From an uncultured Bacteroidia bacterium (GTDB taxonomy: Bacteria; Bacteroidota; Bacteroidia; Bacteroidales; UBA932): a stretch of 64,000 bases of DNA. The first letter of the stretch is position 1, and each line of letters opens with the position of its first letter. Shown in pieces: positions 309 through 63,417 of this stretch. The notes under the pieces were generated by a model. That model was not told the origin of the DNA. It searched no databases and saw only the letters and a program-made list of their open reading frames with translations. The DNA lies in contig CADAND010000008.1 of the NCBI GenBank assembly GCA_902789245.1, positions 1-64,000 on the forward strand, written 5' to 3'. The position numbers and the translations under genes were made by a program.

Positions 309-354
309 CTACTTTTTTTCGAACCTGCAAGTGATTTTCCAAGAAAATTGGCTG

Positions 355-362
355 TATCTTTG
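355..362 (+). promoter_or_regulatory. -7 promoter box of the HAD phosphatase gene
   Basis: TATCTTTG matches TAnnTTTG. It ends only 4 nt before the ATG at 367, so transcription should begin at or next to the start codon. This is the reason for rejecting the more upstream in-frame start at 298. Confidence 0.7.
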
Positions 363-366
363 CGCC

Positions 367-1023: not shown

Positions 1024-1059
1024 TCACAAATGGGGATTGCCGGCAGCGGCAATCCTTGC

Positions 1060-1067
1060 TATCTTTG
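1060..1067 (+). promoter_or_regulatory. -7 promoter box of the FMN-binding lipoprotein gene
   Basis: TATCTTTG again ends exactly 4 nt before the ATG at 1072. The layout is the same as at the HAD gene and predicts a leaderless or near-leaderless message. Confidence 0.7.
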
Positions 1068-1071
1068 CGTC

Positions 1072-1455
1072 ATGAAAAGAATCATTGTACTGCTGGGCTG
1101 CGCGCTGATCTGTGTGGGAGTCGCAGCCGCCTGCAAAGGGCCGAAATTGAAAACCGTCGTCATCAATACTGAGAAACTGGGCAAAGAGGTGCTCGGCTAT
1201 GCCGGCCCGACGCCCGTGGAAATCACCGTCACCGACGGCAAGGTCGCGAAGATCGAGGCCCTGCCGAACGTCGAGTCGCCCGGCTTCTTCCAGCGGGTGA
1301 AGGAGAGCCCGATCTTTACGGCCCTCATCGGCAAGACCGTCAAAGAAGCCTCCGAAGTGAAGTTGGACGCCGTGAGCGGTGCCACATTCTCTTCGAAGGC
1401 TGTCATTGAGAATATTCGCCTGGGGCTGCAGGAAGCAGCCAAAAAGGCGAGGTAG
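1072..1455 (+). CDS. small FMN-binding domain lipoprotein
   Basis: This 127-residue protein consists of a lipoprotein-type signal (lipobox around AAAC, Cys about residue 22) and one FMN_bind domain. That domain is also found in RnfG, NqrC and extracytosolic flavoprotein electron carriers. The signature DAVSGATFSS holds the threonine that the ApbE flavin transferase modifies with FMN in characterised relatives. The protein is therefore probably an envelope-anchored electron carrier carrying covalent FMN. No partner reductase or apbE gene lies next to it. The start at 1072 is favoured by the promoter and the signal peptide. The upstream in-frame start at 1030 would put 14 extra residues before the signal. 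Confidence 0.8.
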   Translation: MKRIIVLLGCALICVGVAAACKGPKLKTVVINTEKLGKEVLGYAGPTPVEITVTDGKVAKIEALPNVESPGFFQRVKESPIFTALIGKTVKEASEVKLDAVSGATFSSKAVIENIRLGLQEAAKKAR

Positions 1456-1462
1456 GCTTGCT

Positions 1463-1547
1463 GCGCGTTGGCGTTGTGGAGGGCGGAGCGGAAATTGGTT
1501 TTTCGAGCAACTGCACGAAAAATAATTTCCGGCCGCCCGCGAGGGGG
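1463..1547 (+). repeat. dispersed palindromic repeat A, copy 1
   Basis: This element of about 85 bp recurs at 29178-29244 and 35342-35424, both inverted relative to this copy. The core TTTTTCG (1499-1505) pairs with CGAAAAA (1516-1522). Flanking arms GCGGAAATT and AATTTCCGGC extend the inverted repeat. Copies 1 and 3 also share the outer segment GCGCGTTGGCGTTGTGGAGG. It fills the gap between two convergent genes, starting 7 nt after the FMN-binding gene. Confidence 0.8.
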
Positions 1548-1560
1548 CGAGCCGGCGAGG

Positions 1561-2355
1561 CTATTTATTGTTCCTGGTGAACAGGAACACCGTCAGGGGC
1601 AGCGCGATGATGGCCATCGTGGCGCTGACCGGCAGGTAGATTCCGAAGTTCACGTATTCCACCACGAAATAGGTGATCAGCAGCAGCCCGACTCCCATCG
1701 CGCTGGAGAGCAGGTAGTGCTTGCGGATGTCCGTGCTCTTGCACATGATGCGGCTGAGGTTCGGCACGCCCAGGGAAATGAATCCGATGGTGCCGCAGAT
1801 GCTCACGGCCGAGGTCACGAGGAACATGATCATCGTCAGGGCGACCGCCTTGCGCCACGCCGGCAGCTCGATCTCGCCGTTGAAATGGCGCGTCAGGTCG
1901 CGGTGCGAGCCGATCGCGGCGGCGAGGCCGACGCCGAACAGCGCCAGCGAGAAGAGGATGTCGCCGGTGGTGACGCCTTCCAGGTGGAAGTTGGCCGCGC
2001 CCCAGAGGTAGTACTGCTTGAGCAGGTCGCCCGTGGGGGCGTTCGTGACCACGATGGTGCCGAGCGAGCCGATGAAGGTGCCGAAGATGATGCCGAAGGT
2101 GATCAGGTTCTGCGTGGAGACCTTCAGGGTCACGAAGAAGCAGATGATGGTGCAAATCAGCGTGCAGACGAATGAGCCGACGGTGAGCGAGCACCAGCCC
2201 GACATCGTGGCGGCCGCGGCGCCCAGACAGGCGGCGCTGCCCAGCCCGAGGGAATAGACGTCCCCGAGCTGGTTGCGCCACAAATATTGCATCTGGATGC
2301 CTCCAACCGGGAGCGCGATCCCGGACAGCAGGACGTAGAGCAGACTCAGCAGCAT
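1561..2355 (-). CDS. short FecCD/BtuC-family ABC transporter permease
   Basis: This 264-residue, very hydrophobic protein resembles the permease subunits of B12 and siderophore importers. The segment GTIGFISLGVPNLSRIM matches the family motif near GPIGFVGLxxPHxxR. The early QYLWRNQLGDVYSLGLGSAA matches the QxxxRNPLADPxLLGxSSGA motif. Family members usually have about 330 residues and ten membrane helices. This one starts almost at the RNPLA-type motif and so lacks the first helix or so. Its ATG lies 4 nt after the stop of the TonB receptor gene, so the two are likely translated together under the cobalamin riboswitch. A B12 role follows from that context. No ATPase or binding-protein gene is next to it. 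Confidence 0.78.
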   Translation of the reverse strand: MLLSLLYVLLSGIALPVGGIQMQYLWRNQLGDVYSLGLGSAACLGAAAATMSGWCSLTVGSFVCTLICTIICFFVTLKVSTQNLITFGIIFGTFIGSLGTIVVTNAPTGDLLKQYYLWGAANFHLEGVTTGDILFSLALFGVGLAAAIGSHRDLTRHFNGEIELPAWRKAVALTMIMFLVTSAVSICGTIGFISLGVPNLSRIMCKSTDIRKHYLLSSAMGVGLLLITYFVVEYVNFGIYLPVSATMAIIALPLTVFLFTRNNK

Positions 2356-2359
2356 AGAA

Positions 2360-4156
2360 CTAGAACTTGAAGGTGAATCCGCCGAGGAAGGAGCGGCCCG
2401 GCATCGGGTAGTCGCGCACCAGTTCGTAGCGGCAGTTCAGCAGGTCGCGGGCCGTGACGTTCAGCGAAAGCACGCCGACGTTGCCGAGCTTGAAATCCTT
2501 GCTCAGCGTGAGGTCGAGCGTGTTCCAGTTCGGCATTTCGCCGGAGGCGTCGAAGCGGCCGCCGCGCCAGTTCCAGACGGCGTCGAGGCGCCAGCCGGCG
2601 ATGGCGGCGTCCGCGGCGAGCACGACGGTGTTCTTGGCCACGTACGGGATCTGCTGGTCGAAGGTGTAGCTGTCCGGGGTCTTGTCGAGCGCGGACTGGC
2701 GGGCGTAGCGGGCGGAGAAGCCGCCGGCAAAGCGGCCGTCGTCATAGCGCAGGCTCAGGGCCGCGTCGATGCCCTTGGCCTCGACCTTGCCGACGTTGTA
2801 CGGCAGCCAGACGTAGGGATCGTCGGCCGACGGCGCGGAGATGATCTTGTTCTGCAGGGAGTTGTAGAAGCCGTCCACCTTGATGCCGAGCGTCCAGTTC
2901 TCGCACAGGCCGCGGTGGAAATCGATGCCCACGTCGGCGAGCCAGGCGTCCTCGGGCTTGAGGTTCGGGTTGCCGTAGCCGGGGTAGTAGAGTTCGTTGA
3001 AGGTCGGGGCGCGGAAGGCGCGGCGGCCGAAGGCGACGAGGTCAAAGCCCTCGAAGATGGTGAAGCGCAGGTCCAGGGAAGGGGAGACGCTGTTCAACGC
3101 TTTCTGCCCCTTGTCGAAGGTGCCGCGGTACTCCACGGCGAGGTCGGCGCTGAACCAGCCCAGGCGGATGGCTGTGGCGAGGGCCGCGATGGCGGCCGTG
3201 CGGGCGGCGTTGTAGCCGGTGGACTTCAGGGAGCCGCGCTCGATGTCGGTGGCCAGCGACACGCCCCACCAGTCCGTCAGGCGGAAGCTGTGGGAGGCGT
3301 TCAGCTGGAAGTCGTTGAAGTTGTAGTCGCTGTCGCCCCATTCGCTCTTGTAGAAGAGGTCGTCCCAGGCAGCTTTGGCGCTGAGGTTCAGGGTGTACAG
3401 GTCGGAGAAAGCCTTGCGGAAGGCGCCCTGCAGGAAGAAATTCTTATCCTGCTGGCGGTCGGCGGACGGCCAGCTCAGGGAGCCGGGCGTGCCGCGGTCG
3501 GAGGCGTTGTAGTAGGCCTTGGCGTGCCAGTCGCCGCCGTCGAGGACGCCGAAGACGTCGGCGCCGGCGCGGAGCTGCTTGAGGTCATTGCCCGCGCGGC
3601 GCTCGTTGTTCGCACCGTAAGGGAAATCGCCCTTGGTGATGACGCCGGCGACGTGGGCGCTGACGCTCACGCGCTCGGAGGCTTTGATGTCAAAGCGGGC
3701 GGAGGGCATCCAGGTGCCGAAAGAACCGGCCTGGAGGCCGACCTGGCCGCCGAAGTTACGGTCGCCGAAGACCGGCTTTGCCGTGCGGAAGGACAGGCTG
3801 TTCTGTGCGTAGTCCACCACGGCGCTGCCCAGAGTCTCCATCGGCAGCATGCCGAGATCGTTCTGGCCGCTCTGGAAATTGCTGACGCGCACACCGTCCA
3901 GGTAGATGTCGGTGTGGGCGGTGCCGAGGCCGCGCAGGCTCACGCCCTTCAGGCCGGCGAGTCCGCCGTAGTCGCTGATGCCCAGCCCGGGCACGCGCAG
4001 GAGCGCTTCCGTGGCGGTGGTGTAATGCTTAAAGGAAACGGTGTCCGTCCGGGACACCACGACGCCCTTGTCGGCCACGATGGTGACGGCCTGCAGGGTG
4101 TCCGGCGTTTCTGCTACCAGCAGACCCGCCGCAAACAAAAGGGAAGATAAGAACAT
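2360..4156 (-). CDS. btuB: TonB-dependent cobalamin receptor, BtuB-like
   Basis: This 598-residue outer-membrane receptor has a short signal peptide ending near VAET and a TonB-box-like segment near DTLQAVTIVAD. A plug domain (about residues 30-130, with VPGLGISDYGGLAGLKGVSLRGLGTAHTDIYLDGVRV-type features) is followed by a 22-strand type barrel. It ends in an aromatic residue (final FKF), as barrel proteins do. The size is normal for BtuB (about 600). The assignment to vitamin B12 rests on the cobalamin riboswitch in its leader. Expression should fall when cobalamin is abundant. The downstream permease gene is 4 nt away. Most of the reverse strand is open only because of GC-rich codon use. 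Confidence 0.88.
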   Translation of the reverse strand: MFLSSLLFAAGLLVAETPDTLQAVTIVADKGVVVSRTDTVSFKHYTTATEALLRVPGLGISDYGGLAGLKGVSLRGLGTAHTDIYLDGVRVSNFQSGQNDLGMLPMETLGSAVVDYAQNSLSFRTAKPVFGDRNFGGQVGLQAGSFGTWMPSARFDIKASERVSVSAHVAGVITKGDFPYGANNERRAGNDLKQLRAGADVFGVLDGGDWHAKAYYNASDRGTPGSLSWPSADRQQDKNFFLQGAFRKAFSDLYTLNLSAKAAWDDLFYKSEWGDSDYNFNDFQLNASHSFRLTDWWGVSLATDIERGSLKSTGYNAARTAAIAALATAIRLGWFSADLAVEYRGTFDKGQKALNSVSPSLDLRFTIFEGFDLVAFGRRAFRAPTFNELYYPGYGNPNLKPEDAWLADVGIDFHRGLCENWTLGIKVDGFYNSLQNKIISAPSADDPYVWLPYNVGKVEAKGIDAALSLRYDDGRFAGGFSARYARQSALDKTPDSYTFDQQIPYVAKNTVVLAADAAIAGWRLDAVWNWRGGRFDASGEMPNWNTLDLTLSKDFKLGNVGVLSLNVTARDLLNCRYELVRDYPMPGRSFLGGFTFKF

Positions 4157-4197
4157 TTTTATACGTCGCTAGGGCGGCCTGACCCCGGGCCTCCGGT

Positions 4198-4312
4198 ATC
4201 AACTTTGTTCGTGGCAGGTATTCGGACTCGATGGAAATCTTACCGTTGCGGGCACAGCTCCGGGCTTTCACCGGATTCCCCTTTACGGTTGCAAAGCAAC
4301 ACACCACAAACT
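4198..4312 (-). promoter_or_regulatory. cobalamin riboswitch controlling btuB
   Basis: The minus strand carries the conserved cobalamin aptamer elements in order. First comes TTGCAACCGTAAAGGGGAA, then TCCGGTGAAAGCCCGGAGC. Next is the B12-box-like TGTGCCCGCAACGG, then GAGTCCGAATACCTGCC. The aptamer is followed by about 40 nt with a GC-rich segment that could form the expression platform, and then the btuB ATG. In such RNAs bound cobalamin lowers expression of the downstream genes. Confidence 0.93.
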
Positions 4313-4318
4313 TCGGCG

Positions 4319-4326
4319 CAAAGATA
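4319..4326 (-). promoter_or_regulatory. -7 promoter box of the btuB riboswitch transcript
   Basis: TATCTTTG on the minus strand lies directly before the riboswitch, placing the transcript start near 4312. Confidence 0.65.
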
Positions 4327-4383
4327 GCGCTTCCGCGCCAGCTTTGCAAAAAATGGCAGCGGATTGTAGCGGCCGCGCCAAAT

Positions 4384-4446
4384 TTGCCCTTGACAGGCAA
4401 ACTGTAATGCTTTCGCAAAATGCCTGTCATGGGCAATCCGGCGCCT
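4384..4446 (-). repeat. 16-bp inverted repeat after the GH3 gene
   Basis: TTGCCCTTGACAGGCA (4384-4399) and TGCCTGTCATGGGCAA (4431-4446) are complementary at 15 of 16 positions, with a 31-nt spacer. It starts 29 nt after the GH3 stop codon, at the end of an eight-gene leftward operon, so it may stabilise or end that transcript. No clear T tract follows, so it is not a classical terminator. Confidence 0.5.
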
Positions 4447-4474
4447 GCCGTCGGGAGGGGTTCTGCAGATCGAA

Positions 4475-6655
4475 CTACAATTTGAAGCTGACGCTGCGGA
4501 GAACGGCGCCCAGTTCTTCGGAGCGCGGCGTGGGAGCGGCCGTCCCTGCCGTGATCGTGTACGATCCCTTCTGCAGCCTGGCGCTGCCGTCCTGCTGGAA
4601 TTCCTTCATCTGTTCCGGCATGACGGTAAAGTGTACCGTGCGGCTTTCACCCGGCTGGAGGGTGATCCGTTCGAAGGCGACGAGCTGGCTGCGCGGCGCG
4701 CCGGCCAGGGCGTTGGGCGTCGATACGTAGAGCTGGACCGTCTCCGTGCGCGCCACTGTACCGGTATTGGAGACCGGAACCTCTACTTCGACGGGCTGGC
4801 CGAGTTTGGGCTTCCGGGTCAAGAGGGACAATTCGCCATACTCGCAGCTGCCGTAGGACAGACCGTAGCCGAAAGGATACATCGTATTGTCTGTCATATA
4901 CTTATAAGTGCGCCCCTGCATCGTGTAATCGTCGAAAGCAGGGAGCAGGTCGGAGGAAACGGGGAAGGTGATCGGCAGCCTGCCGCTGAAATTCTTCTCC
5001 CCGAAGAGCAGCTCGGCCAGCGCGTCGCCGCCCTCTTGCCCGGGGTACCAGGCCATGATCACGGCATCCGCTCCGGCTGCAATCTCCTGCAGGTTGATGG
5101 GGCTGCCGCCGGTGATGACGACGATCAGGTGGTTGTTCGGCGTGCGCATTTGCACGACGTTCCGGAAGAACGCGAGCTGGTTTTCCGGAAGGTCTATGCT
5201 CAGGCGGTCCCCGATGCTCGGAGAGCTGATCGCATCGCTTTCTTCGCCTTCGGTCGTCCCGTTGTTCCCCATGAACATGATGGTGTAGTCGGCCTGTGCC
5301 GCCTGTGCGGTTGCAAAGTTTCCTGGATTCACGTCCCGTGTCGGAACGATGGTGTACGCGGGTTTATAGTTGACGTTGGTACCGTCGCTCACGTGGCTGA
5401 CGATCCCCTGCAGATAGGTGCTGTAGTGGTCGGAGATGCCATAATAGTTGCCCATCATGGAGTAAGTGTCGGTGGCGGCCGTTCCGGTTACGTAAACGTT
5501 CTGGATGTCCTTGCGGAGCGGCAGCAGGTCGTGGTCGTTCTTGAGCAGGACCATGGACTCCACGGCTGCCTGGCGTGCCACCGCGTAGTGTTCGGGGCTG
5601 CCGACGACGGAAGCGGGAATCCCGTAGTAGGGGCAGTCCGGGTCGTCGTAGAGGATGCCCAGCCGGAGCTGGGTCATCAGCAGCGGTTCGAGGGCCCGGT
5701 CGATATCGGCCTCCGTGATGAGCCCGCGGTCAATGGCGCTCTTCAGCGCGTGGAAGGAATTGCCGCACTCCAGGTTAAGTCCCGCTTTGATCGCTATGGC
5801 GCTGGCCTGGGCTGCGTCTTCGGCGATGCGGTGGCCGCCGTAGATATCATCGATAGCTCCGCAGTCCGAGACCACGTGGCCGTCGAAACCCCATTCGTCC
5901 CGGAGCAGATCCGTCAGCAGGAACTTGCTGCCGGAGGCGCTCTCGCCATATACGCGGTTGTAGGCCCCCATTACGATCTCCACGTCCGCTTCCCTGACCA
6001 GTTTCTCGAAAGCCGGAAGGTAAGTCTCGTAGAGATCTTTACGGGAAGGGACCGCGTTGTAGCTGTGCCGGACGGATTCCGGGCCCGAGTGGACGGCAAA
6101 GTGCTTCGCGCATGCGGCCGCCTTCAGGTAGAATGGATCCTCTCCCTGGATACCCTTGACGTAAGCCGCCCCGAGCGTTCCCGTGAGGAAAGGATCCTCC
6201 CCGTAGGTTTCCATGCCGCGTCCCCATCTGGGATCGCGGAATATGTTCACGTTTGGAGCCCAGAATGTCAGGCCTGTGAAGCGGCTGTAGTTGCCTGCCT
6301 CGCGGGATTTCTCGAATTTGGCGCGGCCTTCATCGGAGACGATGTCTCCAATCTTCCTGACGAGTTCCGGATCGAAGGTAGCCCCCAGGCCGATGGGCTC
6401 CGGAAAGACGGTGGCACGGCCGTTACGGGCCACTCCGTGCAGGGCTTCGTTCCACCAGTCGTAGGGCTTGATGCCCAGCCGTTTCACGCCGGGGGTGCTG
6501 TTCATCATCATGCTGATCTTCTCGCCCAAAGTCATCTGCGAGATAATCCCGGCCGCCTTGCGGTGCATGGCGGCCTCTTTCGACTCCTGCGCAAAAGCTC
6601 CCGCCGAGAGGAGCAGCCCTGCTGTCAGAGACAGGAACAAGATTCTGGTATTCAT
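4475..6655 (-). CDS. secreted GH3 glycoside hydrolase, beta-xylosidase-like
   Basis: This 726-residue protein has a signal peptide (cleavage after AFA, about residue 22), the GH3 TIM-barrel, the alpha/beta sandwich domain and a C-terminal fibronectin-like domain. The catalytic nucleophile is D264 in VVSDCGAIDD. A Cys after the nucleophile (SDC rather than SDW) is common in the xylosidase branch. The acid/base glutamate is expected in the NGTTEGEESD stretch of the second domain. KHF and the NRVYGE-type segments are also present. It should release xylose or another beta-linked sugar from xylo-oligosaccharides in the periplasm. Its ATG lies one base after the stop of the upstream dehydrogenase gene, so it is the last gene of the operon headed by the hybrid regulator. 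The start at 6655 is chosen because it begins the signal peptide. Confidence 0.9.
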   Translation of the reverse strand: MNTRILFLSLTAGLLLSAGAFAQESKEAAMHRKAAGIISQMTLGEKISMMMNSTPGVKRLGIKPYDWWNEALHGVARNGRATVFPEPIGLGATFDPELVRKIGDIVSDEGRAKFEKSREAGNYSRFTGLTFWAPNVNIFRDPRWGRGMETYGEDPFLTGTLGAAYVKGIQGEDPFYLKAAACAKHFAVHSGPESVRHSYNAVPSRKDLYETYLPAFEKLVREADVEIVMGAYNRVYGESASGSKFLLTDLLRDEWGFDGHVVSDCGAIDDIYGGHRIAEDAAQASAIAIKAGLNLECGNSFHALKSAIDRGLITEADIDRALEPLLMTQLRLGILYDDPDCPYYGIPASVVGSPEHYAVARQAAVESMVLLKNDHDLLPLRKDIQNVYVTGTAATDTYSMMGNYYGISDHYSTYLQGIVSHVSDGTNVNYKPAYTIVPTRDVNPGNFATAQAAQADYTIMFMGNNGTTEGEESDAISSPSIGDRLSIDLPENQLAFFRNVVQMRTPNNHLIVVITGGSPINLQEIAAGADAVIMAWYPGQEGGDALAELLFGEKNFSGRLPITFPVSSDLLPAFDDYTMQGRTYKYMTDNTMYPFGYGLSYGSCEYGELSLLTRKPKLGQPVEVEVPVSNTGTVARTETVQLYVSTPNALAGAPRSQLVAFERITLQPGESRTVHFTVMPEQMKEFQQDGSARLQKGSYTITAGTAAPTPRSEELGAVLRSVSFKL

Positions 6656-6656
6656 A

Positions 6657-7562
6657 TCATTTGCGGCGTTTGACCGTAACGTTGGCGAGCTTCTCCCAGT
6701 ATTGGATGACGCCGCAGTGGTCGTCATTCACGTGCCCGTCGCACTTGCAGGCCTTGAAGGCTTCCAGCACTTGGGTGGTGAGGGGGATGGGCGCGTCGAT
6801 GGCAAGGGCGGCGTCGCGGACGTTCAACAGGTCCTTGGTGTGCATCCAAATGGGTCCGCCGGGTTTGAAATTCCGATCGAGAATACGGTCCATCTTTGCA
6901 TCCAGTACCGTACTGCCGGCCAGACCGCCCCGGATGGCCTGGTAAACCTTTTCCGGATCGACGCCGGCCTTCTCGGCGAATACCATCGCTTCGGCGACGG
7001 CCGAAAGATGGAGGGCCACCATGATCTGGTTGGCCAGCTTACAGGTGTTGCCGCTGCCAATCTCCCCGACCAGCGTGACAGCTTCACCCATGGCATGCAG
7101 AATGTCCTTGACAGACTCGAATACCTCCTGCTTGCCTCCGACCATGATCGACATCGTGCCATCGATGGCCTTGGGCTCTCCGCCGCTCACGGGCGCGTCC
7201 AGCATCTCGACGCCTTTCTCGGCCATGATGCCGTAGAGCTTTTTGGAGACGACAGGGGAGATGGAACTCATGTCGATATAGACGGAGCCCGGGCGAATCC
7301 CCTCCAGGACGCCGTTCGGACCGCAAACGACGCTCTCCACGTGGGGTGAGTTCGGGAGCATCGTGATAATGATGTCGCAGCGCTTGGCAAGGGCCGCGGG
7401 TGTTTCAGCCGCCTGGGCACCGAGTGCCACCAACTCTAGCACGGGTTCGGTCTTGATGTCGAACACGGTGAGCTGAAATCCGTTTTTGATGATGTTTTTG
7501 GCCATCGGCTTGCCCATGACGCCCAGCCCGATGAGACCTATTTGTTTTGTTTTATTGTCCAT
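6657..7562 (-). CDS. beta-hydroxyacid dehydrogenase (GarR/HIBADH family)
   Basis: This 301-residue NAD(P)-dependent enzyme belongs to the family of tartronate semialdehyde reductase, 3-hydroxyisobutyrate dehydrogenase and L-threonate dehydrogenase. The N-terminal Rossmann motif is GLIGLGVMGKPMAKN. The substrate-binding signature is DAPVSGGEPKAIDGT. The catalytic lysine lies in GNTCKLANQ. The family oxidises or reduces a hydroxyl on a short hydroxy acid, but the substrate here is unknown. It sits in an operon with a GntP permease, DhaK/DhaL kinases and an RpiB-like isomerase, so a sugar-acid substrate such as a tetronate is likely (inference). The next gene upstream ends 9 nt away, and the GH3 gene follows after one base. 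Confidence 0.88.
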   Translation of the reverse strand: MDNKTKQIGLIGLGVMGKPMAKNIIKNGFQLTVFDIKTEPVLELVALGAQAAETPAALAKRCDIIITMLPNSPHVESVVCGPNGVLEGIRPGSVYIDMSSISPVVSKKLYGIMAEKGVEMLDAPVSGGEPKAIDGTMSIMVGGKQEVFESVKDILHAMGEAVTLVGEIGSGNTCKLANQIMVALHLSAVAEAMVFAEKAGVDPEKVYQAIRGGLAGSTVLDAKMDRILDRNFKPGGPIWMHTKDLLNVRDAALAIDAPIPLTTQVLEAFKACKCDGHVNDDHCGVIQYWEKLANVTVKRRK

Positions 7563-29244: not shown

Positions 29245-29260
29245 GCCCCCGCACGGCCGG

Positions 29261-29350
29261 TCCGTAACAGAAACGGGCCTTTTTCTGTTCCAGAATCGTG
29301 ATTTTCCGATTCTGTAACAAAAAACGGCTCTTTTCTGAAACGGATTCTGC
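29261..29350 (+). repeat. nested palindromic repeat B, copy 1 (REP-like)
   Basis: The centre at 29287-29318 is 32 nt. CAGAATCG pairs with CGATTCTG, and the ends are GTTC and GTAAC. The outer arms TCCGTAACAGAAA and TTTCTGAAACGGA also pair. The layout and length match the copies at 61024 and 62682, which flank the HUH transposase genes. Confidence 0.78.
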
Positions 29351-54383: not shown

Positions 54384-54427
54384 GCATGGGACCCGCAACC
54401 CTTTTTAACCAAAATATTATTAATTCT

Positions 54428-57400
54428 ATGACCAAACAATTGTTTGCGAAGGCGGCAACGGTCATCATGATCTTTGCTGCAAGTCTCTTGGGAATGAGCT
54501 CAGCTCTCGCCCAGAATCCTGCCATTCGCGGTAATGTGGTCGATTCCGGCAACCAGCCGGTGATCGGCGCAGCCGTCGTGGTGCCCGGCACCACCAATGG
54601 CGTCACGACGGATCTCGACGGTAAATTCGAAATCCGTGTCGCTCCCGGCACTACGCTGGAAGTTTCCTGCATCGGTTACACCACCAAGCGCGTTTCCGCC
54701 GCCAACGGTATGACCATCGTTCTCGAAGACGACGCAGAAATGCTCGAAGAGACCGTCGTCATCGGTTACGGCGTCCAGAAAAAGAGCGACCTGACCGGCT
54801 CCGTGGCCTCCGTCCGCGAGGACGACCTGCAGAACCGCTCCACGTCCGACGCTGCCGCCGCCCTCCAGGGCAAGGCTGCCGGCGTGCAGGTCATCCAAGC
54901 TTCCGGTGCTCCGGGCAAGGCCGCTGAAATCCGCGTCCGTGGTTACTCCTCCAACTCCGGAAACATCGGACCGCTCCTCATCGTGGACGGCCTGAAGGTG
55001 GACAACATCCAGTACCTGGATCCGGAAATGATCGAGTCCATGGAGGTCCTGAAGGATGCTGCCTCCGCTGCCATCTATGGTGCCGAGGCCGGTAACGGTG
55101 TCGTGCTCATCACCACCAAGTCCGGCAAGAAGGGCGAGGGCAAGGTTTTCTACAACGGCCAGTTCACCCTCTCCAGCCTGTCTCGTAAGCTTGACATTAT
55201 GAACGCCGCCGACTACATCGCCTTCGAGAAGAAGTGCGGTTACCTGAGCGATCAGGCTCTCAGCGATGCCCATTACGACGGGCTCGATGTGAACTGGAGC
55301 AATGAAATCTTCACTCCGACCTGGAGCAACCGCCACACGGTGGGCTTCTCCGGTGGCAACGACCGTGGCAATCTCTTCGTCTCCCTGAACAACGTCCACA
55401 ACAACGGTATCGTCCGTGGTGACAAGGATGTGTACGATCGTCTGACCTTCCAGGTTAACGCCGACTACAAGATCAAGGATTGGCTGACCGTCGGCGTCAA
55501 CAACTCCATCGAGCGCTGGAGCACCAGATCCGTGTCCGAGGCGAACGACAACGGCTCCTTCATGCTGTCCGCCATCACTTCTTCTCCTTTGTTCCCTGCC
55601 GCTGGCGACCGGGCTCTGCTCGAGAAGTACTATGCGAATATGATCGACTATGAGAAGAAAGGATATACCCTGATCACCGACCCTGATTCCGGCCTGTATT
55701 GGCTTCCTCCCCGTATCGGTTCCACCCAGTCCGGCCACCCGTTCGTGCAGCGTGATGCGACCGACAGCAAGAGCAGCGGCTTCAGCATCCGTGGCGTCGC
55801 CTACCTGAACTTCATGCCGTTCAAGGGCTTCGTGTTCACGTCCCGCTTCGGCTATCGGATCTCCCAGAACAACAGTCACAGCTATTCTGCTCCTTACTAC
55901 AGCAGCAATACGGTGAAGTCCGACAACTACAGCATTTCCGCCTCGGCCAACAATGGTTGGTACTACCAGTGGGAGAACTTCATCAACTACAACCGCACCT
56001 TCGGCAAGCACGATGTCGGCGCGATGGCCGGTATGTCCTATATCGAGAACAACTGGGACAACGTCAGCGCTTCCGCTTCCGGTACCGACATCCTCAAGGG
56101 CTATGCCGAGAACTTCCGTTATCTGGACTACCTGCTGTCCGACGGCGTCACCAAGAACATGAACAATGCTCCCGGCCGTTCCGCCAGCCTGTCCTACTTC
56201 GGTCGTCTCTCCTATTCCTATGACAACCGCTACAGCATCCAGGCCAACTTCCGCGCCGATGCGTTCGACTCCTCCAAGCTTCCGTTCAACAAGAAGTGGG
56301 GCTACTTCCCGTCGGTGTCCGCTGGCTGGACCATCAGCAACGAGCCGTTCTTCAAGAACAACGTGGACCGCAGCGTGGTCTCCTTCCTGAAGCTTCGCGC
56401 CAGCTGGGGTATCAACGGTAACATCAACGTGCTGAACAACTACCCGTACTCCACGTCGATCATGGCCAACGCCGTGTACTATCAGTACGATCCTACCAGC
56501 CCGACCCTGTCGATGGGTTCCATCCCTTCCGGTCTTGCGAATCCTGATCTGAAGTGGGAGACCTCCGTCCAGCTCGACTTCGGTCTTGACGCCCGTCTGT
56601 TCAACAACCGCCTGACCATCGGTATCGATTACTTCAACAAGGACACCAAGGACCTGCTGGTCGGTGTGAGCCCTGTGAAGGAAGTCGGTCTTCCTGCCTT
56701 CGGTGACCTGGGTGTCGCCACCAACGTGACGATGAACGCCGGTTCCGTGAACAACCGCGGTGTCGAGCTTGAGCTCGGCTGGCGTGACCAGATCGGTGAC
56801 TTCAGCTACGCCATCAACGGCAACGCCTCCTGGCTGAAGAATACGGTCACCTATGTCGAGCCCACCGTCGGCCAGATTACCGGCCGCGTCCCGCAGGGCT
56901 GCGAAATGGGTACCTACTTCGAGCAGGGCCACAGCATCTGGTACCTCCTCGGTTATCAGGCTGTTGGCTTCGACGACGAGGGCAACGCCCTGTACCGCAC
57001 CGCTGACGGTGGCCAGACCGCCTCTCCTTCGCAGTCCGACCGCGTTGACCTGGGTTCCGGTATTCCTAAGTTTACCTACGGTCTGACCATCAACCTCAGC
57101 TGGAAGAATTTCGACCTCACGATCTTCGGTAACGGTATCGCAGGCAGCAAGATTTTCCCGACGTCCTGGCGTCCTGACCGCAAGGAGTGCAACACCTACT
57201 CCTACTACTGGGCCAACTCCTGGGACAATCCTGCTGTGACCAAGGCCAACGCCAAGTTCCCGGCTGCCGACAAGTGGTCCACGCAGGCCTTCTCCTCCAC
57301 GCTGACCCTCTTCGACGGTTCCTACTTCAAGATCAAGCAGATCCAGTTGGGTTACACCCTGCCGAAGCAGCTGACCCAGAAGGCCAAGATCAACAACCTC

Positions 57401-57556
57401 CGCATCTTCGCCGCCCTGGACAACTACATTACCTTCACCAACTACATCGGGCTGGATCCGGAGACGGCTACCAACGGTGGCTCCGCCGCCGGTATTGACA
57501 TGGGTAACTACCCGACTGCCAAGTCCCTGATTCTCGGTGTCAACCTCGAGTTCTAA
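54428..57556 (+). CDS. susC: SusC-like TonB-dependent outer-membrane transporter 3
   Basis: This 1042-residue transporter has a signal peptide ending in ALAQ and a regulatory-like domain (about 30-105). A TonB box lies near EETVVIGYGVQKKSDLTGSV, followed by plug and barrel. The first 85 residues are nearly the same as those of the broken susC 2, and the plug regions are also close. The barrel regions differ in the surface loops, so the ligands may differ. It is followed by its own susD. The start at 54428 matches susC 2. The in-frame 54386 start would lie within the leader. Confidence 0.95.
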   Translation: MTKQLFAKAATVIMIFAASLLGMSSALAQNPAIRGNVVDSGNQPVIGAAVVVPGTTNGVTTDLDGKFEIRVAPGTTLEVSCIGYTTKRVSAANGMTIVLEDDAEMLEETVVIGYGVQKKSDLTGSVASVREDDLQNRSTSDAAAALQGKAAGVQVIQASGAPGKAAEIRVRGYSSNSGNIGPLLIVDGLKVDNIQYLDPEMIESMEVLKDAASAAIYGAEAGNGVVLITTKSGKKGEGKVFYNGQFTLSSLSRKLDIMNAADYIAFEKKCGYLSDQALSDAHYDGLDVNWSNEIFTPTWSNRHTVGFSGGNDRGNLFVSLNNVHNNGIVRGDKDVYDRLTFQVNADYKIKDWLTVGVNNSIERWSTRSVSEANDNGSFMLSAITSSPLFPAAGDRALLEKYYANMIDYEKKGYTLITDPDSGLYWLPPRIGSTQSGHPFVQRDATDSKSSGFSIRGVAYLNFMPFKGFVFTSRFGYRISQNNSHSYSAPYYSSNTVKSDNYSISASANNGWYYQWENFINYNRTFGKHDVGAMAGMSYIENNWDNVSASASGTDILKGYAENFRYLDYLLSDGVTKNMNNAPGRSASLSYFGRLSYSYDNRYSIQANFRADAFDSSKLPFNKKWGYFPSVSAGWTISNEPFFKNNVDRSVVSFLKLRASWGINGNINVLNNYPYSTSIMANAVYYQYDPTSPTLSMGSIPSGLANPDLKWETSVQLDFGLDARLFNNRLTIGIDYFNKDTKDLLVGVSPVKEVGLPAFGDLGVATNVTMNAGSVNNRGVELELGWRDQIGDFSYAINGNASWLKNTVTYVEPTVGQITGRVPQGCEMGTYFEQGHSIWYLLGYQAVGFDDEGNALYRTADGGQTASPSQSDRVDLGSGIPKFTYGLTINLSWKNFDLTIFGNGIAGSKIFPTSWRPDRKECNTYSYYWANSWDNPAVTKANAKFPAADKWSTQAFSSTLTLFDGSYFKIKQIQLGYTLPKQLTQKAKINNLRIFAALDNYITFTNYIGLDPETATNGGSAAGIDMGNYPTAKSLILGVNLEF

Positions 57557-57575
57557 TCTTAGAATGACTACGAAT

Positions 57576-59270
57576 ATGAAAAAGATATTTATCGCCCTGA
57601 CCGTTGCAGCCGCTTCCCTGATGTTCGTGGGATGTGAGAGTCGCCTGGATATCCCCCGCAAGGGTGTGATCGACATGTCGACCTTCTACCAGACCGACGC
57701 CGATGCCGAATCCGCGCTCGTGGCTGCCTATTATACCGCCGGCCGTTTCCTCTCCAACACGATGTGGACCACCGCCGGTTGGAACGACTGCCCGTTCCTC
57801 TCCATGTGGGAGTACGCCTCCGACGAGATTTTCGTCGCCGGTTCCGATAAGACCGACGGCCAGTCTGGTAACGAAATCCAGGCTTTCCGTGCGGACTACA
57901 ACAACTCCTTGATTGCAGGTACGTATGAGTGCTACTACATGATCATCAAGGCCGCCAACGACGTGATCGATCATTTCGCCGAGGCTGCCGACACGCAGGT
58001 CAAGAAGCGCTGCGTGGCCGAGGCCCGCATCCTCCGCGCCCAGGCTCAGCTGCTCCTCGCCCTCGCCTGGGGCACCCCTCCGATTGTCGAGAGCAACCTG
58101 GCCGGTGACGCCAAGCCGGAGAATGCCGCCTCTCAGGACGCTGTCCTCCAGTGGGTCGCCGACGAGTGCGACAAGGCCATCCCTGACCTGACCTCCAAGA
58201 CTTCTGTCGATGACAAGAAGGGCGCCGTGAAGGTTACGAAGGAGTTTGCTTATGCCCTCAAGGGCAAAGCCCTCATCAGCAAGCACGACTATGCCGGTGC
58301 GAAGACCGCTCTCAAGGAAGTTATCGATTCCAAGCTCTACAAGCTGGTTCCGGGTGATCAGATGGCTTCCCTGAACCACAACAGCGGCCGCGCTTCTACC
58401 GAGGCGGTGTTCGAGCTCAACTTCCAGTTCTTTGACGGCATGAATGCCTATGGCCGTACGCAGCCGAACTTCCGCTGGCTGTGGTCCTGGCGTTCCGACC
58501 ACATGAACTCGCCGACCGGCGATGGTTCCGAGCTGGTCGTCGGCGGCTGGGGCTGGGTCAACCCTTCCCAGAAGTTCGTGAACAAGATTCTTGAGTATGA
58601 CGGCATGGATTCCTATCGCCGCAAGGCTTGGATCAAGAGCTATGACGAAGTGCTCTACGATATGCCGTACACCTCCGACAAGGACGGTGTCGACAAGAAG
58701 ACGGACAAGACCCGTGGTGTCATGGATTCCGGTCTTTACGGTCACGTCGGTTACTTCATGTGGAAGCGTCTCTTCCGCCAGGAGGACCGCGTGATGGCCG
58801 ACGGCAACGTCGCCAACTGGAACCTCACCCTCATGCGTTACGCCGAGGTGCTCCTTCTCTATGCAGAGTGCTGCGCCCAGACCAACGATGACGGCAGCGG
58901 CCTCGCCGCCCTGAAGCTCGTCAACGAGCGTGCCGGTTCCAAGACTCCGGTCACGGTGTGCGACATGAAGACGGTCAAGTCTGAGAAGTTCCTCGAGGGC
59001 TGGCTGGACGGCACCCGCTTCCAGGATCTCATCCGTTGGGGTGATGCCGCGACGGAGCTTGCCGACAACGGTAAGTACTATCCCACCTTCTACGATGCAA
59101 TGTCCAAGAAGGGCGAAGCGGAACACCGCGGCTACATCGACGAAAGCGATGCTGATTGGTGCGCCAAGCTCTACAATGTCGGTTTCAAGACCGGTAAGAG
59201 CGAGCTCTTCCCGTTCCCGTTCAACGAAATGCAGCTGAACCCGAACCTGGTCCAGAACCCTGGCTATTAA
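57576..59270 (+). CDS. susD: SusD/RagB-like surface glycan-binding lipoprotein 3
   Basis: This 564-residue lipoprotein has its lipobox Cys in LMFVGC. The family start RLDIPRKGVIDMSTFYQTDADAESAL and end NPNLVQNPGY are present. It is the partner of SusC 3, 19 nt downstream of it. ATGs at 57564 and 57576 are in frame, and the second directly precedes the MKK signal. Confidence 0.94.
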   Translation: MKKIFIALTVAAASLMFVGCESRLDIPRKGVIDMSTFYQTDADAESALVAAYYTAGRFLSNTMWTTAGWNDCPFLSMWEYASDEIFVAGSDKTDGQSGNEIQAFRADYNNSLIAGTYECYYMIIKAANDVIDHFAEAADTQVKKRCVAEARILRAQAQLLLALAWGTPPIVESNLAGDAKPENAASQDAVLQWVADECDKAIPDLTSKTSVDDKKGAVKVTKEFAYALKGKALISKHDYAGAKTALKEVIDSKLYKLVPGDQMASLNHNSGRASTEAVFELNFQFFDGMNAYGRTQPNFRWLWSWRSDHMNSPTGDGSELVVGGWGWVNPSQKFVNKILEYDGMDSYRRKAWIKSYDEVLYDMPYTSDKDGVDKKTDKTRGVMDSGLYGHVGYFMWKRLFRQEDRVMADGNVANWNLTLMRYAEVLLLYAECCAQTNDDGSGLAALKLVNERAGSKTPVTVCDMKTVKSEKFLEGWLDGTRFQDLIRWGDAATELADNGKYYPTFYDAMSKKGEAEHRGYIDESDADWCAKLYNVGFKTGKSELFPFPFNEMQLNPNLVQNPGY

Positions 59271-59478: not shown

Positions 59479-59720
59479 TTTCTTTTTTTTGTAGGTAAAT
59501 TTCACGGAAAGACCAATAACAAGCAATTCTGTTTCAAAAGTCGGATTGTGCAGATAATGAACGGTTTCGGCTGCGCCGGCCGAAACGGGTGTACAGGATG
59601 CCGGCAGATTGTCCACCCGGCTTTTTCCCGTTATTTCCGGGCATGAAGCAGAATTGACGGGAATTGGTCCGCGAGTGATAGTTCTCCCGGGCCCGGGCCG
59701 TCGAATCTCGTTTTTTTGTG
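59479..59720. other. intergenic stretch without recognised gene
   Basis: No convincing gene is seen in these 242 bp. There is a strong imperfect hairpin around 59550-59590 (GTTTCGGC/GCCGAAAC) of unknown role. Confidence 0.4.
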
Positions 59721-59728
59721 TATATTTG
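59721..59728 (+). promoter_or_regulatory. -7 promoter box of the aminotransferase gene
   Basis: TATATTTG ends 4 nt before the ATG at 59733, again predicting a leaderless message. Confidence 0.7.
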
Positions 59729-59732
59729 CGAT

Positions 59733-60929
59733 ATGGAAATCTCGCAGCGAGCACAGAATATGCCGTCTTCCCCGATCCGGAAGCTGGCTCCGTATGCCGA
59801 CGCGGCCAAGCGCAACGGCGTACACGTCTATCACCTCAATATCGGTCAGCCGGATATCAAGACCCCGCAGTGCGGTCTCGACGCCCTCAAGGCCGTGGAC
59901 CGCAGCATCCTGGAGTACAGCCCCTCCGACGGCTATCTCTCGCTGCGCACCAAGATGGTCCAGTACTACGCTGAGTACGGGATTTACCTTTCTCCGGAGG
60001 AGATCATCGTCACCACCGGCGGCTCCGAAGCGGTGCTGTTCGCTTTCCTGGCGTGCCTCGGGCCGGGCGACGAAGTGATCGTCACGGACCCGTTCTATGC
60101 CAACTACATGGCCTTCGCCATTTCCGTGGGCGCCGTGATCAAGAGCGTCAAGACGAACATCGAGGACGGCTTCCGCCTGCCCTCCGTGGAGGCGTTCGAG
60201 GAGCAGATCACCCCGCGCACCAAGGCCATCCTCATCTGCAACCCCAACAACCCGACGGGCTACCTCTATACCCGCAAGGAGATGCAGCGCCTGCGCGATA
60301 TCGTCAAGAAGCACAATCTCTTCCTGTTCAGCGACGAGGTGTACCGTGAGTTCATCTACACGGGCATGCCCTACATTTCCGCCTTCCACATGGAGGGGAT
60401 CGAGGAGAATGTCGTGCTGTTTGACTCCGTGTCCAAGCGCTACTCGGAATGCGGCATCCGCATCGGCTGCCTCTGCACGAAGAACAAGGCCGTGCGCGAC
60501 GCGGTGATGAAGTTCTGCCAGGCGCGCCTGTCCCCGCCGCTGCTCGGCCAGATCGTGGCCGAGGCGTCGCTGGGCGTGCAGAAGGAGTATCTGCACGGCG
60601 TCTATGAGGAGTACCTGGAGCGACGCAACTTCCTGATTGACGGGCTGAACAAGATCCCCGGCGTGTATTCGCCCATCCCGATGGGCGCCTTCTACACGAT
60701 GGCGAAGCTCCCGGTCGATGATGCGGAGAAGTTCTGCATCTGGTGCCTGCGCGACTTCCAGTACGAAGGAGCCACGGTGATGATGGCGCCCGGCGCCGGC
60801 TTCTACACCGAGCCCGGCGAGGGTCGGCAGGAAGTCCGCATCGCCTACGTCCTCTGCAAGGAGGACCTCGCCAAAGCCCTGGTCGTCCTCCAAAAAGCCC
60901 TCGAATCCTACCCCGGCCGCACCGAATAG
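59733..60929 (+). CDS. PLP-dependent class I aminotransferase (aspartate-type)
   Basis: This 398-residue cytoplasmic fold-type I aminotransferase has the PLP-binding stretch CNPNNPTGYLYT. The Asp/Tyr pair is in FSDEVYREFIY and the Schiff-base Lys is in DSVSKRYSECGIRIG. The C-terminal substrate Arg is in QEVRIAYVL. It probably exchanges amino groups between aspartate or another amino acid and 2-oxoglutarate. Specificity is not readable. The start at 59733 is chosen because of the promoter box 4 nt before it. An in-frame ATG at 59718 would lie upstream of the transcript. Confidence 0.9.
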   Translation: MEISQRAQNMPSSPIRKLAPYADAAKRNGVHVYHLNIGQPDIKTPQCGLDALKAVDRSILEYSPSDGYLSLRTKMVQYYAEYGIYLSPEEIIVTTGGSEAVLFAFLACLGPGDEVIVTDPFYANYMAFAISVGAVIKSVKTNIEDGFRLPSVEAFEEQITPRTKAILICNPNNPTGYLYTRKEMQRLRDIVKKHNLFLFSDEVYREFIYTGMPYISAFHMEGIEENVVLFDSVSKRYSECGIRIGCLCTKNKAVRDAVMKFCQARLSPPLLGQIVAEASLGVQKEYLHGVYEEYLERRNFLIDGLNKIPGVYSPIPMGAFYTMAKLPVDDAEKFCIWCLRDFQYEGATVMMAPGAGFYTEPGEGRQEVRIAYVLCKEDLAKALVVLQKALESYPGRTE

Positions 60930-61023
60930 AACCTTCCCGGCTACGTCTTCCCGACCTGACCGGTTTTCTTCCATTTTCGGCCTGGCCTGCCGCCTGGCCC
61001 TCGTCCTGCCACCGGCCTGGAAT

Positions 61024-61117
61024 CCGGAACAGAACAAGGCCCAAAACAGTTACGGAATCGCAAATTTGCGATTCCGTAACAATAAATGTCGTTTTTCTGT
61101 TACCGATTCGGATTCTG
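61024..61117 (+). repeat. nested palindromic repeat B, copy 2, next to the HUH transposase
   Basis: The centre at 61049-61080 is a perfect 32-bp palindrome, GTTACGGAATCGCAAA followed by its complement. The outer arms CCGGAACAGAA and TTCTGTTACCG also pair. The right arm contains the last codons and stop of the transposase gene (61100). Confidence 0.88.
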
Positions 61118-62050
61118 AGCGGAGCAGGGGACTCCTTTTTTGTATGAAGCGGGGAAGAGCGCTTCCAGAACCGTCGGGTCCATCTTCAATATGCGTTTGA
61201 TTTGACGTGGGGCGGCTTTGTAATCGAAGTGCAATTTCCTGGCCAGGGTATTCTTTGCTTCCGGGGGCAGGCTGGTCAGGCTACGCACGCCGTATTCCTG
61301 GGCCGCTAGTGTACGCGCTACGCCGAACATCTCTTCGTCTGTCAGGTATGCCGTATCCGCCAGCCGCTTGGCGATGCCGCTCCCGGCTTCTTGATTCCTG
61401 CTCAAGAGCCGGAAGTACTGATGGGCGTTGCGATAGTACGCTTCTCCTTCCTGGATGGAGCAAAAAGAGAGCGGATGGATCATCTGCCCCGTAACCTCGT
61501 ACTCCTTAGGTAATTCAATCAGCCTGCCGTGGTAGAGTTTCCGTTGCTCCGGCTGGGATAGGGAGGATAATCGGATTCTTGGCACCGCGGCCAGCAGGGG
61601 ATTGAAATAGTATACGCCTGCACTCCACGGGTAGGAATATGGAGTATGCTCAGGCTGAACGACATAACCGTTCCGGTTGACGTACACGATTTCGTTGCGC
61701 AGGGCTTGCAGGTCGGGAATCTCGAAGGCGTCCGGAACGAGCGCCGACAAATCCGGATATCGTCCCTGCCCGGCCAGGAAACGCTTCAGCCGTTTCCTGT
61801 AAAGTGCGAAAAACGAAAGCGCATCCTCCCGGCTTCCTGCCAGGATGATGTGAAAGTGATTGTTCATCAGCGTGAAAGTGACAATCCGCAAGCTTGGAAA
61901 CGCCGCCAGGCAGACTGCCATCAGGTTCATGCCGACGATGAAATCCTCCGGGGATGTAAAGATGATTTCTGTCAGATCTCCCGGCGTGTAGATGTGCCAA
62001 TAGGGGCCCTTGCTGCGAAAGTCGAATTCGCAGACTTCATCGTTTCTCAT
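61100..62050 (-). CDS. HUH (Y1) transposase, REP-associated type
   Basis: This 316-residue protein carries the HUH metal motif HFH (H65, H67) in TLMNNHFHIIL, typical of TnpA-REP/RAYT single-strand transposases. A candidate catalytic Tyr is Y123 in NEIVYVNRNGY, the place of the family YxxxNPxxAG motif. The C-terminal part (TDEEMFGVARTLAAQEYGVRSLTSLPPEAKNTLARKLHFDY) is helical and DnaA/transposase-like. RAYTs cut and join single-stranded DNA at palindromic repeats. Matching repeats flank this gene pair directly, and its own 3' end lies in one of them. It is preceded by a Myb-like gene 11 nt upstream. Confidence 0.85.
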   Translation of the reverse strand: MRNDEVCEFDFRSKGPYWHIYTPGDLTEIIFTSPEDFIVGMNLMAVCLAAFPSLRIVTFTLMNNHFHIILAGSREDALSFFALYRKRLKRFLAGQGRYPDLSALVPDAFEIPDLQALRNEIVYVNRNGYVVQPEHTPYSYPWSAGVYYFNPLLAAVPRIRLSSLSQPEQRKLYHGRLIELPKEYEVTGQMIHPLSFCSIQEGEAYYRNAHQYFRLLSRNQEAGSGIAKRLADTAYLTDEEMFGVARTLAAQEYGVRSLTSLPPEAKNTLARKLHFDYKAAPRQIKRILKMDPTVLEALFPASYKKGVPCSAQNPNR

Positions 62051-62061
62051 CCGTGACTGGA

Positions 62062-62613
62062 TTAAGCCCTTCTCGGGACACCGGCTTCTATCCCCAGATT
62101 GACCCCCAGGCGGCCAAGACGCAGCTTGATGGCATTGGCATTCCGGCCGAATTTGTGGCCCAGTTCATTCCAGTGGACCTTTTTCTCCCCCTCGGAGGCT
62201 ATCGCATACTGGCTGAGTAACTCGGCGTCTTCTTCCGGGGTCCATTTTTGGTAAGCCTTTGGGAATCGGGCCCTGAATCCTTCCTGCTGCATCCGGAAAA
62301 GGTCCAGAAAATCGGAAAACCGGCGGTACCTGTCTTTATCCGTGTTCCCGGCCAGCCATCCCTCCAATTCTCCGGCCTCGGTCTGTTCGTAGATTTGCTT
62401 CAGCAGGAATGGAGCCAGTCCGCAGACCTGCTTGTCGAAGCTGATTCTTTTCCCGGAATCCTTTGCGGTGCTGGCAAGGAGCTTTCCCACTTCTGCGAAG
62501 GCTTCATGCATTAAATCTTCTACGGCATCTTGTGCGGCAGATCGGAGCGGCGAGAGAATCTCGCGCATCTGGGCCTCCAGGGAGGAGGCAGGAAGGGTTT
62601 CAATAGTTTCCAT
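62062..62613 (-). CDS. Myb/SANT-like DNA-binding partner of the HUH transposase
   Basis: This 183-residue protein has a helical N-terminal part (about 1-115) of unknown type. It ends in a Myb/SANT-like helix-turn-helix (about 125-175, KWTPEEDAELLSQYA, then WNELGHKFGRNANAIKLRLGRLG). It is the first gene of a two-gene unit with the HUH transposase (gap 11 nt). Such a partner is not part of the best-known RAYT systems. It may bind the palindromic repeats or regulate transposition. The whole pair lies between repeat copies. I do not recognise the family further. Confidence 0.72.
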   Translation of the reverse strand: METIETLPASSLEAQMREILSPLRSAAQDAVEDLMHEAFAEVGKLLASTAKDSGKRISFDKQVCGLAPFLLKQIYEQTEAGELEGWLAGNTDKDRYRRFSDFLDLFRMQQEGFRARFPKAYQKWTPEEDAELLSQYAIASEGEKKVHWNELGHKFGRNANAIKLRLGRLGVNLGIEAGVPRRA

Positions 62614-62681
62614 TTTTCATGAGTTTTAGTATTCAACGACAAGATAGGAAAAATGGAGAAAACGGCAAAAGGAGAAATCAA

Positions 62682-62769
62682 TCCGTGACTGAAAAAGGGC
62701 GGAAACTGTTACAGAATTGCAAAATCGCGATTCTGTAACAAAATTTCGGCCTTTTCTGTAACGGAATCC
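62682..62769 (+). repeat. nested palindromic repeat B, copy 3, flanking the HUH pair
   Basis: The centre at 62708-62739 pairs GTTACAGAATTGC with GCGATTCTGTAAC (13 bp, one wobble). Outer arms TCCGTGACTGAAAAAGG and CCTTTTCTGTAACGGA also pair. It has the same orientation as copy 2, so the two form direct repeats around the transposase pair. It ends at the stop codon of the HD-domain gene. Confidence 0.85.
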
Positions 62770-63389
62770 TATCGCTCCGCGTCGAAGATAGCTTCGAAGA
62801 GGGTGCGGAGGCGGGGGAGGTCGTCGATGAGGGCGCGGAGCTCGGCGAGGCGCGCGGCGTTGGGGGATTCGGGAATCCAGAGCTTGAGGTAGCCGCCCTC
62901 CGCATATTTCTCGTGGAGGTGGTCCAGGGTGCGGCGCCAGTGCTCCTCGCGGTCCAATTCCGGGTAGTGGCCCAGGCCGAACTGGACGGTGCGCCGGACG
63001 ATGGTCTCCGGCTCGATCTGCCGGTCGGCCTCGGCGATGATGCGTCCGTAGATGGAGCGGGGCTCGTGGTCGAGCGAGGCGCGGTGGTCCTCCGCGGCCT
63101 GCGCGATGACTTCGATCTGTCCGGGGGAGAACCAGCGGGGCAGGGCCGGGTCGTCGCGGATGATGCGTCCCGAGACCAGATGGTGCGTGGCGCGGTCCGC
63201 GCAGAGGCCCGTGTCGTGGAAGGCCGCCGCGGCGTAGATCATGTCGCGGTCGACGGGGTAGTGCGCCGCGAGCGCCAGGGCGTCGCGGATCACGCGCTCG
63301 ACGTGCGGGCGCCGGTGCGCCTTGTCGAAGGCGTCGTAGCGGGGGAGGATCTCCGCCTCCACGTAGGCTTGCAGCTCGGATCGAATCAT
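62769..63389 (-). CDS. HD-domain metal-dependent hydrolase
   Basis: This 206-residue cytoplasmic protein has the HD phosphohydrolase pattern. The metal ligands are H in KAHRRPHVERV, HD in AAAAFHDTGLC, H in EDHRAS and a later D in IIAEADRQIEP. Such proteins cleave phosphate esters or nucleotides. The substrate is unknown. The start at 63389 follows a TATCTTCG promoter box and gives a sensible N terminus (MIRSELQAYVEAEI). The stop codon abuts repeat copy 3. Confidence 0.85.
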   Translation of the reverse strand: MIRSELQAYVEAEILPRYDAFDKAHRRPHVERVIRDALALAAHYPVDRDMIYAAAAFHDTGLCADRATHHLVSGRIIRDDPALPRWFSPGQIEVIAQAAEDHRASLDHEPRSIYGRIIAEADRQIEPETIVRRTVQFGLGHYPELDREEHWRRTLDHLHEKYAEGGYLKLWIPESPNAARLAELRALIDDLPRLRTLFEAIFDAER

Positions 63390-63396
63390 AGCGAAG

Positions 63397-63404
63397 CGAA
63401 GATA
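63397..63404 (-). promoter_or_regulatory. -7 promoter box of the HD-hydrolase gene
   Basis: TATCTTCG on the minus strand (TAnnTTyG), 7 nt before the ATG. Confidence 0.55.
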
Positions 63405-63417
63405 CGGAAAAAATTCG

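Follow-up and report, generated by a model that had tools for sequence, protein, structure and literature searches.

Near the end of the window, the 64,000-nt stretch of DNA analysed here, a transposase gene and a Myb-like gene lie between two copies of a palindromic repeat, and together they probably constitute a REPtron that belongs to a divergent branch of the Y1 HUH (TnpA_REP/RAYT) superfamily. This gene-repeat architecture recurs at homologous loci across the genus, many of them with cognate flanking repeats of their own; the window repeat is amplified in one species, as pairs of fixed geometry; and the catalytic residues of the transposase are conserved. Anatomy and distribution suggest that the unit works like a RAYT/REPIN system, which most likely falls within the wider class 2 Y1 family. 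The features of the window on which the analysis draws are as follows.

29258-29347, plus strand: dispersed repeat copy, 90-nt doublet
59718-60929, plus strand: aminotransferase gene (aspC-like), marking one side of the cassette site
61020-61109, plus strand: repeat copy A, 90-nt doublet, REPIN-like, with a perfect 32-nt inner palindrome at 61049-61080
61100-62050, minus strand: transposase, 316 aa, HUH/Tyr, with HFH at residues 65-67 (in NNHFHII), Tyr123 and an HTH-like C-terminal tail
62062-62613, minus strand: Myb-like protein, 183 aa, with a Myb domain below the Pfam cut-off
62679-62768, plus strand: repeat copy B, 90-nt doublet, abutting the stop of the HD-like gene
62769-63408, minus strand: HD-like gene, bounding the cassette site opposite aspC (so named in the initial annotation, start approximate)

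The window order is thus aspC-like (+), repeat A, transposase (-), Myb-like (-), repeat B, HD-like (-), with the Myb-like gene 11 nt upstream of the transposase gene; further off, 54386-57556 and 57537-59270 presumably form a SusC/SusD-like gene pair, which makes a Bacteroidota host likely. These coordinates bear out the initial annotation, which had placed the two genes between two direct repeats of about 90 bp, a third copy elsewhere in the window, the transposase stop codon (61100-61102) inside one repeat and the HD-like stop (62769-62771) directly beside the other. The perfect 32-nt centre that it had assigned to the second copy does exist, but in copy A; the corresponding centre of copy B pairs at 13 of 16 positions.

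Each of the three window copies is exactly 90 nt long and matches a covariance model with E-values of 1e-16 to 2e-15, scores that are strong partly by construction, the model having been built from these three copies and nine others. Independently of that model, a 13-nt core pattern matches the window 16 times, against 4.2 +/- 1.9 matches in 100 shuffles, none of which reached 16. Twelve copies from the window's own genome, found through an exact 12-nt core, align gap-free across 90 columns, the invariance of that core stemming in part from its use as the search key. The repeat consists of two hairpins of about 40 nt in inverted order, positions 1-41 aligning with the reverse complement of 50-90, and the 90 nt can be folded either as one nested palindrome or as a pair of hairpins, at positions 2-39 and 51-90. 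Covariation did not exceed that of shuffles for either fold, and the structure is therefore argued from palindromy. The window copies are direct, yet their orientation is weakly defined because each copy is so palindromic. A GGC/GCC loop motif is shared by 23 of 29 window-type repeats but by just 50 of 125 loops around homologues, so no family-wide claim is made for it. The motif GT[AG]G, looked for on either strand, occurs in one of the twelve copies, at position 21 and not at the foot. In four of 16 copies (L021, L027, L033 and L035) the left end directly follows the foot of another palindromic repeat ending in GGGCATCTCC or GGTCATCTCC, and two more (L031 and L032) follow a GACCGGC palindrome; these neighbours may represent a target preference or a mosaic element.

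Homologous loci carry repeats that differ from one to the next. The comparison covered 36 transposase loci, namely the seven of the window's own genome (G000) and the 29 best matches in other genomes, a set that is not random and in which several loci are cut by contig ends. When 900 nt on each side were compared, a flank-to-flank repeat of at least 50 bits was present at 19/36 loci, against 10/1260 mismatched pairs, which include related loci; the remaining 17/36 missed the 50-bit level. At 12 of the 19 loci the downstream copy begins no more than 24 nt from the transposase stop. Within the flanks, palindrome centres are regularly spaced, with distances of 25.0, 25.5 or 26.0 nt (the 24-27 nt class) in 56 of 135 intervals and at 21 of 36 loci; control stretches from the same loci, comprising gene bodies and sequence beyond 700 nt, gave 8 of 110 intervals in this class, in a control to which five loci contribute. 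A similar count put 59 of 129 intervals in the 24-28 nt bin, with 0.2 expected from shuffles. The window locus misses the exact-arm version of this phasing test; in aligned window-type copies, the palindrome centres are 25.0 nt apart.

The transposase is one of a numerous family. Its own genome holds six further matches with 27-41% identity, and 78 of 101 genomes of the same genus, many of them incomplete assemblies, contain a match at E <= 1e-20. Since none of the six matches exceeds 41% identity and near-identical gene copies are absent, an IS200/IS605 insertion sequence was rejected. The HUH motif and the tyrosine are retained in 31 of 33 aligned proteins (from the 36 loci), the exceptions being L057 and L071; the HFH and Tyr residues singled out in the initial annotation are thus conserved in homologues. 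Tyr123 lies in the context YVNRNG; an NP in the corresponding position was found only in paralogs L017 and L018 among the 33 proteins, the Asn itself being kept. No tryptophan is among the near-invariant columns between HUH and Tyr123, and Trp142 follows the tyrosine. All full-length members of the alignment share a C-terminal tail with an HTH-like sequence, so called from its resemblance and from a profile alignment rather than from a Pfam match.

Kinship to Y1 enzymes appears to be a matter of remote homology, indicated by three kinds of match. PF01797 (Y1_Tnp) does not match the window protein at E-values up to 1, and is found in 10 of 33 family members at E <= 0.1 (best 1.5e-5); the PDB transposase chains 2xm3, 2xma and 2xo6 match at E ~0.01 across the HUH stretch; and a profile alignment with a 309-aa, PF01797-positive protein from a WOR-3 MAG reaches 97% probability over 255 columns and brings HUH, Tyr and tail into line. 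When the profile was compared with the single sequence of E. coli RayT, the probability was 4%; PHROGs and NCBIfam gave no match for the transposase, and a scan of genome contigs found only two remote relatives.

The Myb-like gene is much rarer. It is present in 10 of 101 genomes, with a transposase within its 1.5-kb flanks in three of the ten, and at three of the 36 transposase loci examined. Divergence of the Myb-like protein tracks that of the transposase (59% versus 61% identity between genomes G080 and G065, 44% versus 48% between G000 and G080); the G080 frame is broken. The gene thus accompanies the cassette in the window clade and is accessory for the family as a whole, so that the unusual Myb-like partner of the initial annotation does adjoin the transposase here without being its constant companion. 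As for the protein itself, Pfam PF00249 scores 20.0 bits, below the curated cut-off of 24.4, and a PDB sequence search returned only three unrelated weak matches (E ~0.06).

Sister species differ at the cassette site. G080 has aspC (+), Myb (+), transposase (+) and HD (-), the cassette being turned round relative to the window; G065 has aspC, Myb, a truncated transposase and a UDG-like gene; G097 has aspC, Myb and the UDG-like gene, with no transposase within the stretch examined; and G058 has aspC, RidA and HD, with no cassette at that junction. The aspC genes of the window and G080 are 99% identical, compared with 92% for a 5.8-kb stretch elsewhere, and the HD gene has a dS of 0.29. The two transposases, by contrast, share 48% identity, and their synonymous sites are saturated. 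Divergence so far above that of the neighbours means that they did not simply separate as orthologues when the species did; replacement, independent arrival and differential loss of old copies are the alternatives. A tree groups the window protein with L071 and L057 and the G080 protein with that of G065, both forks being strongly supported. The repeat differs too, as G080 has a TCCTCAAA-type repeat in place of the window repeat, with a transposase at the same site. That repeat gives 25 + 23 strand hits in G080, whereas six other genomes, G000 among them, have sums of 0-6 apiece; in G080 it occupies 26 places, with 13 neighbour distances below 100 nt, 11 of them exactly 51. It is common to G080 and G065, in the latter as essentially one doublet beside the cassette, and has left a few relics in G000. 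The repeat of paralog L018, by comparison, is hardly amplified (six strand hits in its own genome, six in G080, three in G097 and none in four others).

L057 (G015; 224 aa) and L071 (G008; 223 aa) are open frames that lack HUH, Tyr and tail and have the same gene on either side. Compared with each other they give a dN/dS of 0.34 and a dS of 0.84, similar to the dS of 0.68 and 1.08 for the neighbours, which suggests that the frames are under constraint, part of which may predate the catalytic loss; both are possibly domesticated derivatives. An explanation that extends this to the family, and which we consider unlikely, is that the repeats are now duplex binding arrays, of the operator or nucleoid type, for the HTH-like tail and the Myb-like protein, with the HUH activity dormant in, or gone from, a large part of the family and the transposase turned into a domesticated regulator. 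The fixed 25.5-nt phasing of alternating boxes across many unrelated sequences would fit such a role, as would the lack of covariation if sequence rather than pairing is read, and as would the maintenance of the two dead frames at dN/dS 0.34. However, the catalytic residues persist in 31/33 proteins, the repeat copies are recent, paired and species-restricted, and the dead relatives have lost the tail as well, and therefore do not demonstrate a tail-based role.

The REPtron reading is consistent with the distribution of the repeat. In G000 (2.28 Mb), the covariance model detects no fewer than 18 places at E <= 1e-5, each match spanning 90 nt on its best strand, and six weaker places up to E = 10, a lower bound obtained by scoring the best 150 of 454 first candidates. 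A model of the single repeat (R2; 29 sequences, 28 of them from doublets), searched over 13 genomes with the best 150 of up to 880 candidates scored and thus also yielding lower bounds, gives at least 56 rows in G000; 19 of these are opposite-strand readings, and 36 of the remaining 37 places form 18 inverted pairs with an identical 49-nt offset. Each of the 12 other genomes has 0-4 rows among the candidates scored. Sister G080 has four, which mark two isolated sites (best E 4.6e-13). G015 has one (5.7e-4); G058, G027 and G023 have one each and G022 and G047 two each, at E >= 0.006 in these five genomes; and G097, G008, G065, G011 and G004 have none. Given how few and weak these rows are, the repeat hardly occurs outside the genome that carries this transposase, apart from relics in sister G080; across the 13 genomes searched with R2, it is not equally common in relatives without the transposase, its expansion being limited to the species that has it. 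The doublet model matched at least ten of the 101 same-genus genomes at E <= 0.1, with the best 43 candidates per genome scored. Two apparent carriers were rejected: the 90-nt element of G008, which gave the strongest match outside G000, has the same length but agrees at 50 of 90 consensus positions, has other boxes and has no R2 match, and the 113-nt matches in G021 are another sequence. The latter, at G021 C4:6848-6961 and other places, represent a separate palindromic repeat family with GTGACA/TGTTAC boxes. Among 16 of the 18 G000 copies placed against mechanically kept ORFs of at least 90 aa, a rough test of intergenic position, six have no overlap, three overlap by up to 30 nt and seven overlap more, mostly with ORFs of 93-178 aa and once with one of 409 aa.

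Individual sites give some indication of how copies spread. At C4:16832, G000 has a 90-nt doublet where G080 has a single 40-nt repeat, a difference of 50 nt; this site, compared base by base, and C4:23103 were examined for the empty sites in sister strains that the initial annotation had proposed to look for, and neither was empty. The copies at C4:16832-16921 and C4:23103-23192, 6.3 kb apart, are near reverse complements except that the central four bases are AAAA in both, a pattern that flipping of a hairpin or a template switch would be expected to leave. These two copies share flanking sequence, and a larger stretch has therefore been copied; C13:3340 and C7:131513 also share flanks, so some copies have spread by larger duplications. 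In the same region (L121, G000 C4:15800-24300), about 195 nt at 5880-6074 lie within an rRNA-methyltransferase-like frame (5718-6650, plus strand), as if a repeat had entered the gene in frame; parts of this stretch recur at numerous sites in each of the six relatives compared, and the alignment with G080 is interrupted there, covering 1-5879 and 6075-7286, two parts that are only about 40 nt apart in G080.

The two copy pairs with common flanks, and the exact 50-nt difference at one orthologous site, which fits loss or gain of one unit, are also what would be seen if ordinary palindromic repeats had spread by recombination, segmental duplication and slippage, with the transposase a mere neighbour. 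This is very unlikely, as many homologous transposases are each flanked by a repeat family of their own (19/36 against 10/1260) and copies are confined to the genome that holds the matching gene. That the hairpins act mainly in RNA, as transcription terminators or mRNA ends of adjoining genes, is scarcely plausible: the downstream copy often lies just past the transposase stop (12/19) and the predicted folds are very stable, but upstream copies, tandem arrays and dispersed pairs of fixed geometry would be left unexplained.

The best-studied RAYT/REPIN systems are proteobacterial and depend on a GTAG foot. As described by Nunvar (2010; PMC2817692), Bertels and Rainey (2011; PMC3116915), for the inverted-pair REPIN layout, and Corneloup (2021; PMC8266576), RAYT/TnpA_REP proteins resemble the present case in being low-copy HUH/Tyr proteins flanked by their own dispersed palindromic repeat, in the arrangement of the repeats as inverted doublets, and in having a separate repeat for each paralog or species. 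Set against these descriptions, the window system lacks the GT[AG]G foot, has centres phased at about 25.5 nt and an HTH-like tail, and its window protein has no PF01797 match; its 18 doublets in G000 are also far fewer copies than in classical cases. Nunvar (2010) required PF01797 and reported RAYTs that satisfied the criteria of that study only from gammaproteobacteria. The GT[AG]G foot marks most REP-linked subclasses, though not 2.6 or class 3, and is absent from the feet of the window repeat, while Y---NP marks RAYT/TnpA_REP class 2 Y1 and the window protein has Y---NG. Two subclasses described by Quentin (2018; PMC6006769) share features with it. Subclass 2.6, mostly from Bacteroidetes, shares atypical flanking structures without GT[AG]G that have copies elsewhere in the genome, but is set apart by its description (median 179 aa and YIH[QN]NP, against about 310 aa and YVNRNG here). 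Subclass 2.1/TIRYT has a C-terminal HTH or DnaA_C-like tail, like that seen here, and the WOR-3 protein appears to have its general layout; Quentin (2018) reports no REP-like sequences for it, whereas cognate repeats are common here. With the foot motif, Y---NP and the conserved Trp all sought and none found, no described subclass fits, and no paper on this branch surfaced in the open-access literature searched. The complete REP/RAYT system of the initial annotation therefore stands as an HUH/Tyr transposase with a dispersed, paired palindromic repeat, whose features match no described RAYT subclass.

That repeat DNA is cleaved and transposed, and that either protein binds DNA, is here predicted from sequence. 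The transposase most likely recognises its cognate repeat in single-stranded form, by the hairpins; it would then cut and rejoin repeat DNA through Tyr123 and the HUH metal site, and would thereby copy REPINs, the inverted repeat pairs, or move them about its own genome. Double-stranded DNA of the phased repeat array is probably bound by the HTH-like tail and, in the window clade, by the Myb-like partner. The repeats would accordingly be mobile elements, with the dispersed copies as offspring of the window unit; no transposition event was observed in the genomes compared. A bolder proposal, possible but on balance doubtful, is a code of geometry: alternating boxes about 25.5 nt apart, free in sequence, would be read as duplex by the HTH tail (with the Myb-like partner here) before the HUH core acts, replacing the single-stranded GTAG guide, while sister species would exchange entire REPtrons, each with its own repeat, at the aspC locus, and the dead relatives would have arisen by domestication.

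Few pairings of a transposase with a repeat are believed to coexist peaceably with their bacterial hosts, and RAYTs with REPINs are one of them. The branch described here has many members within a single genus, as the matches in 78 of 101 genomes show, and surveys based on PF01797 would have missed the window protein. Near one locus, close sister species offer intact, truncated, dead and absent versions of the transposase, together with repeat copy number, for comparison; this natural variation makes the persistence of REPINs, and the change of partners between transposase and repeat, directly testable.
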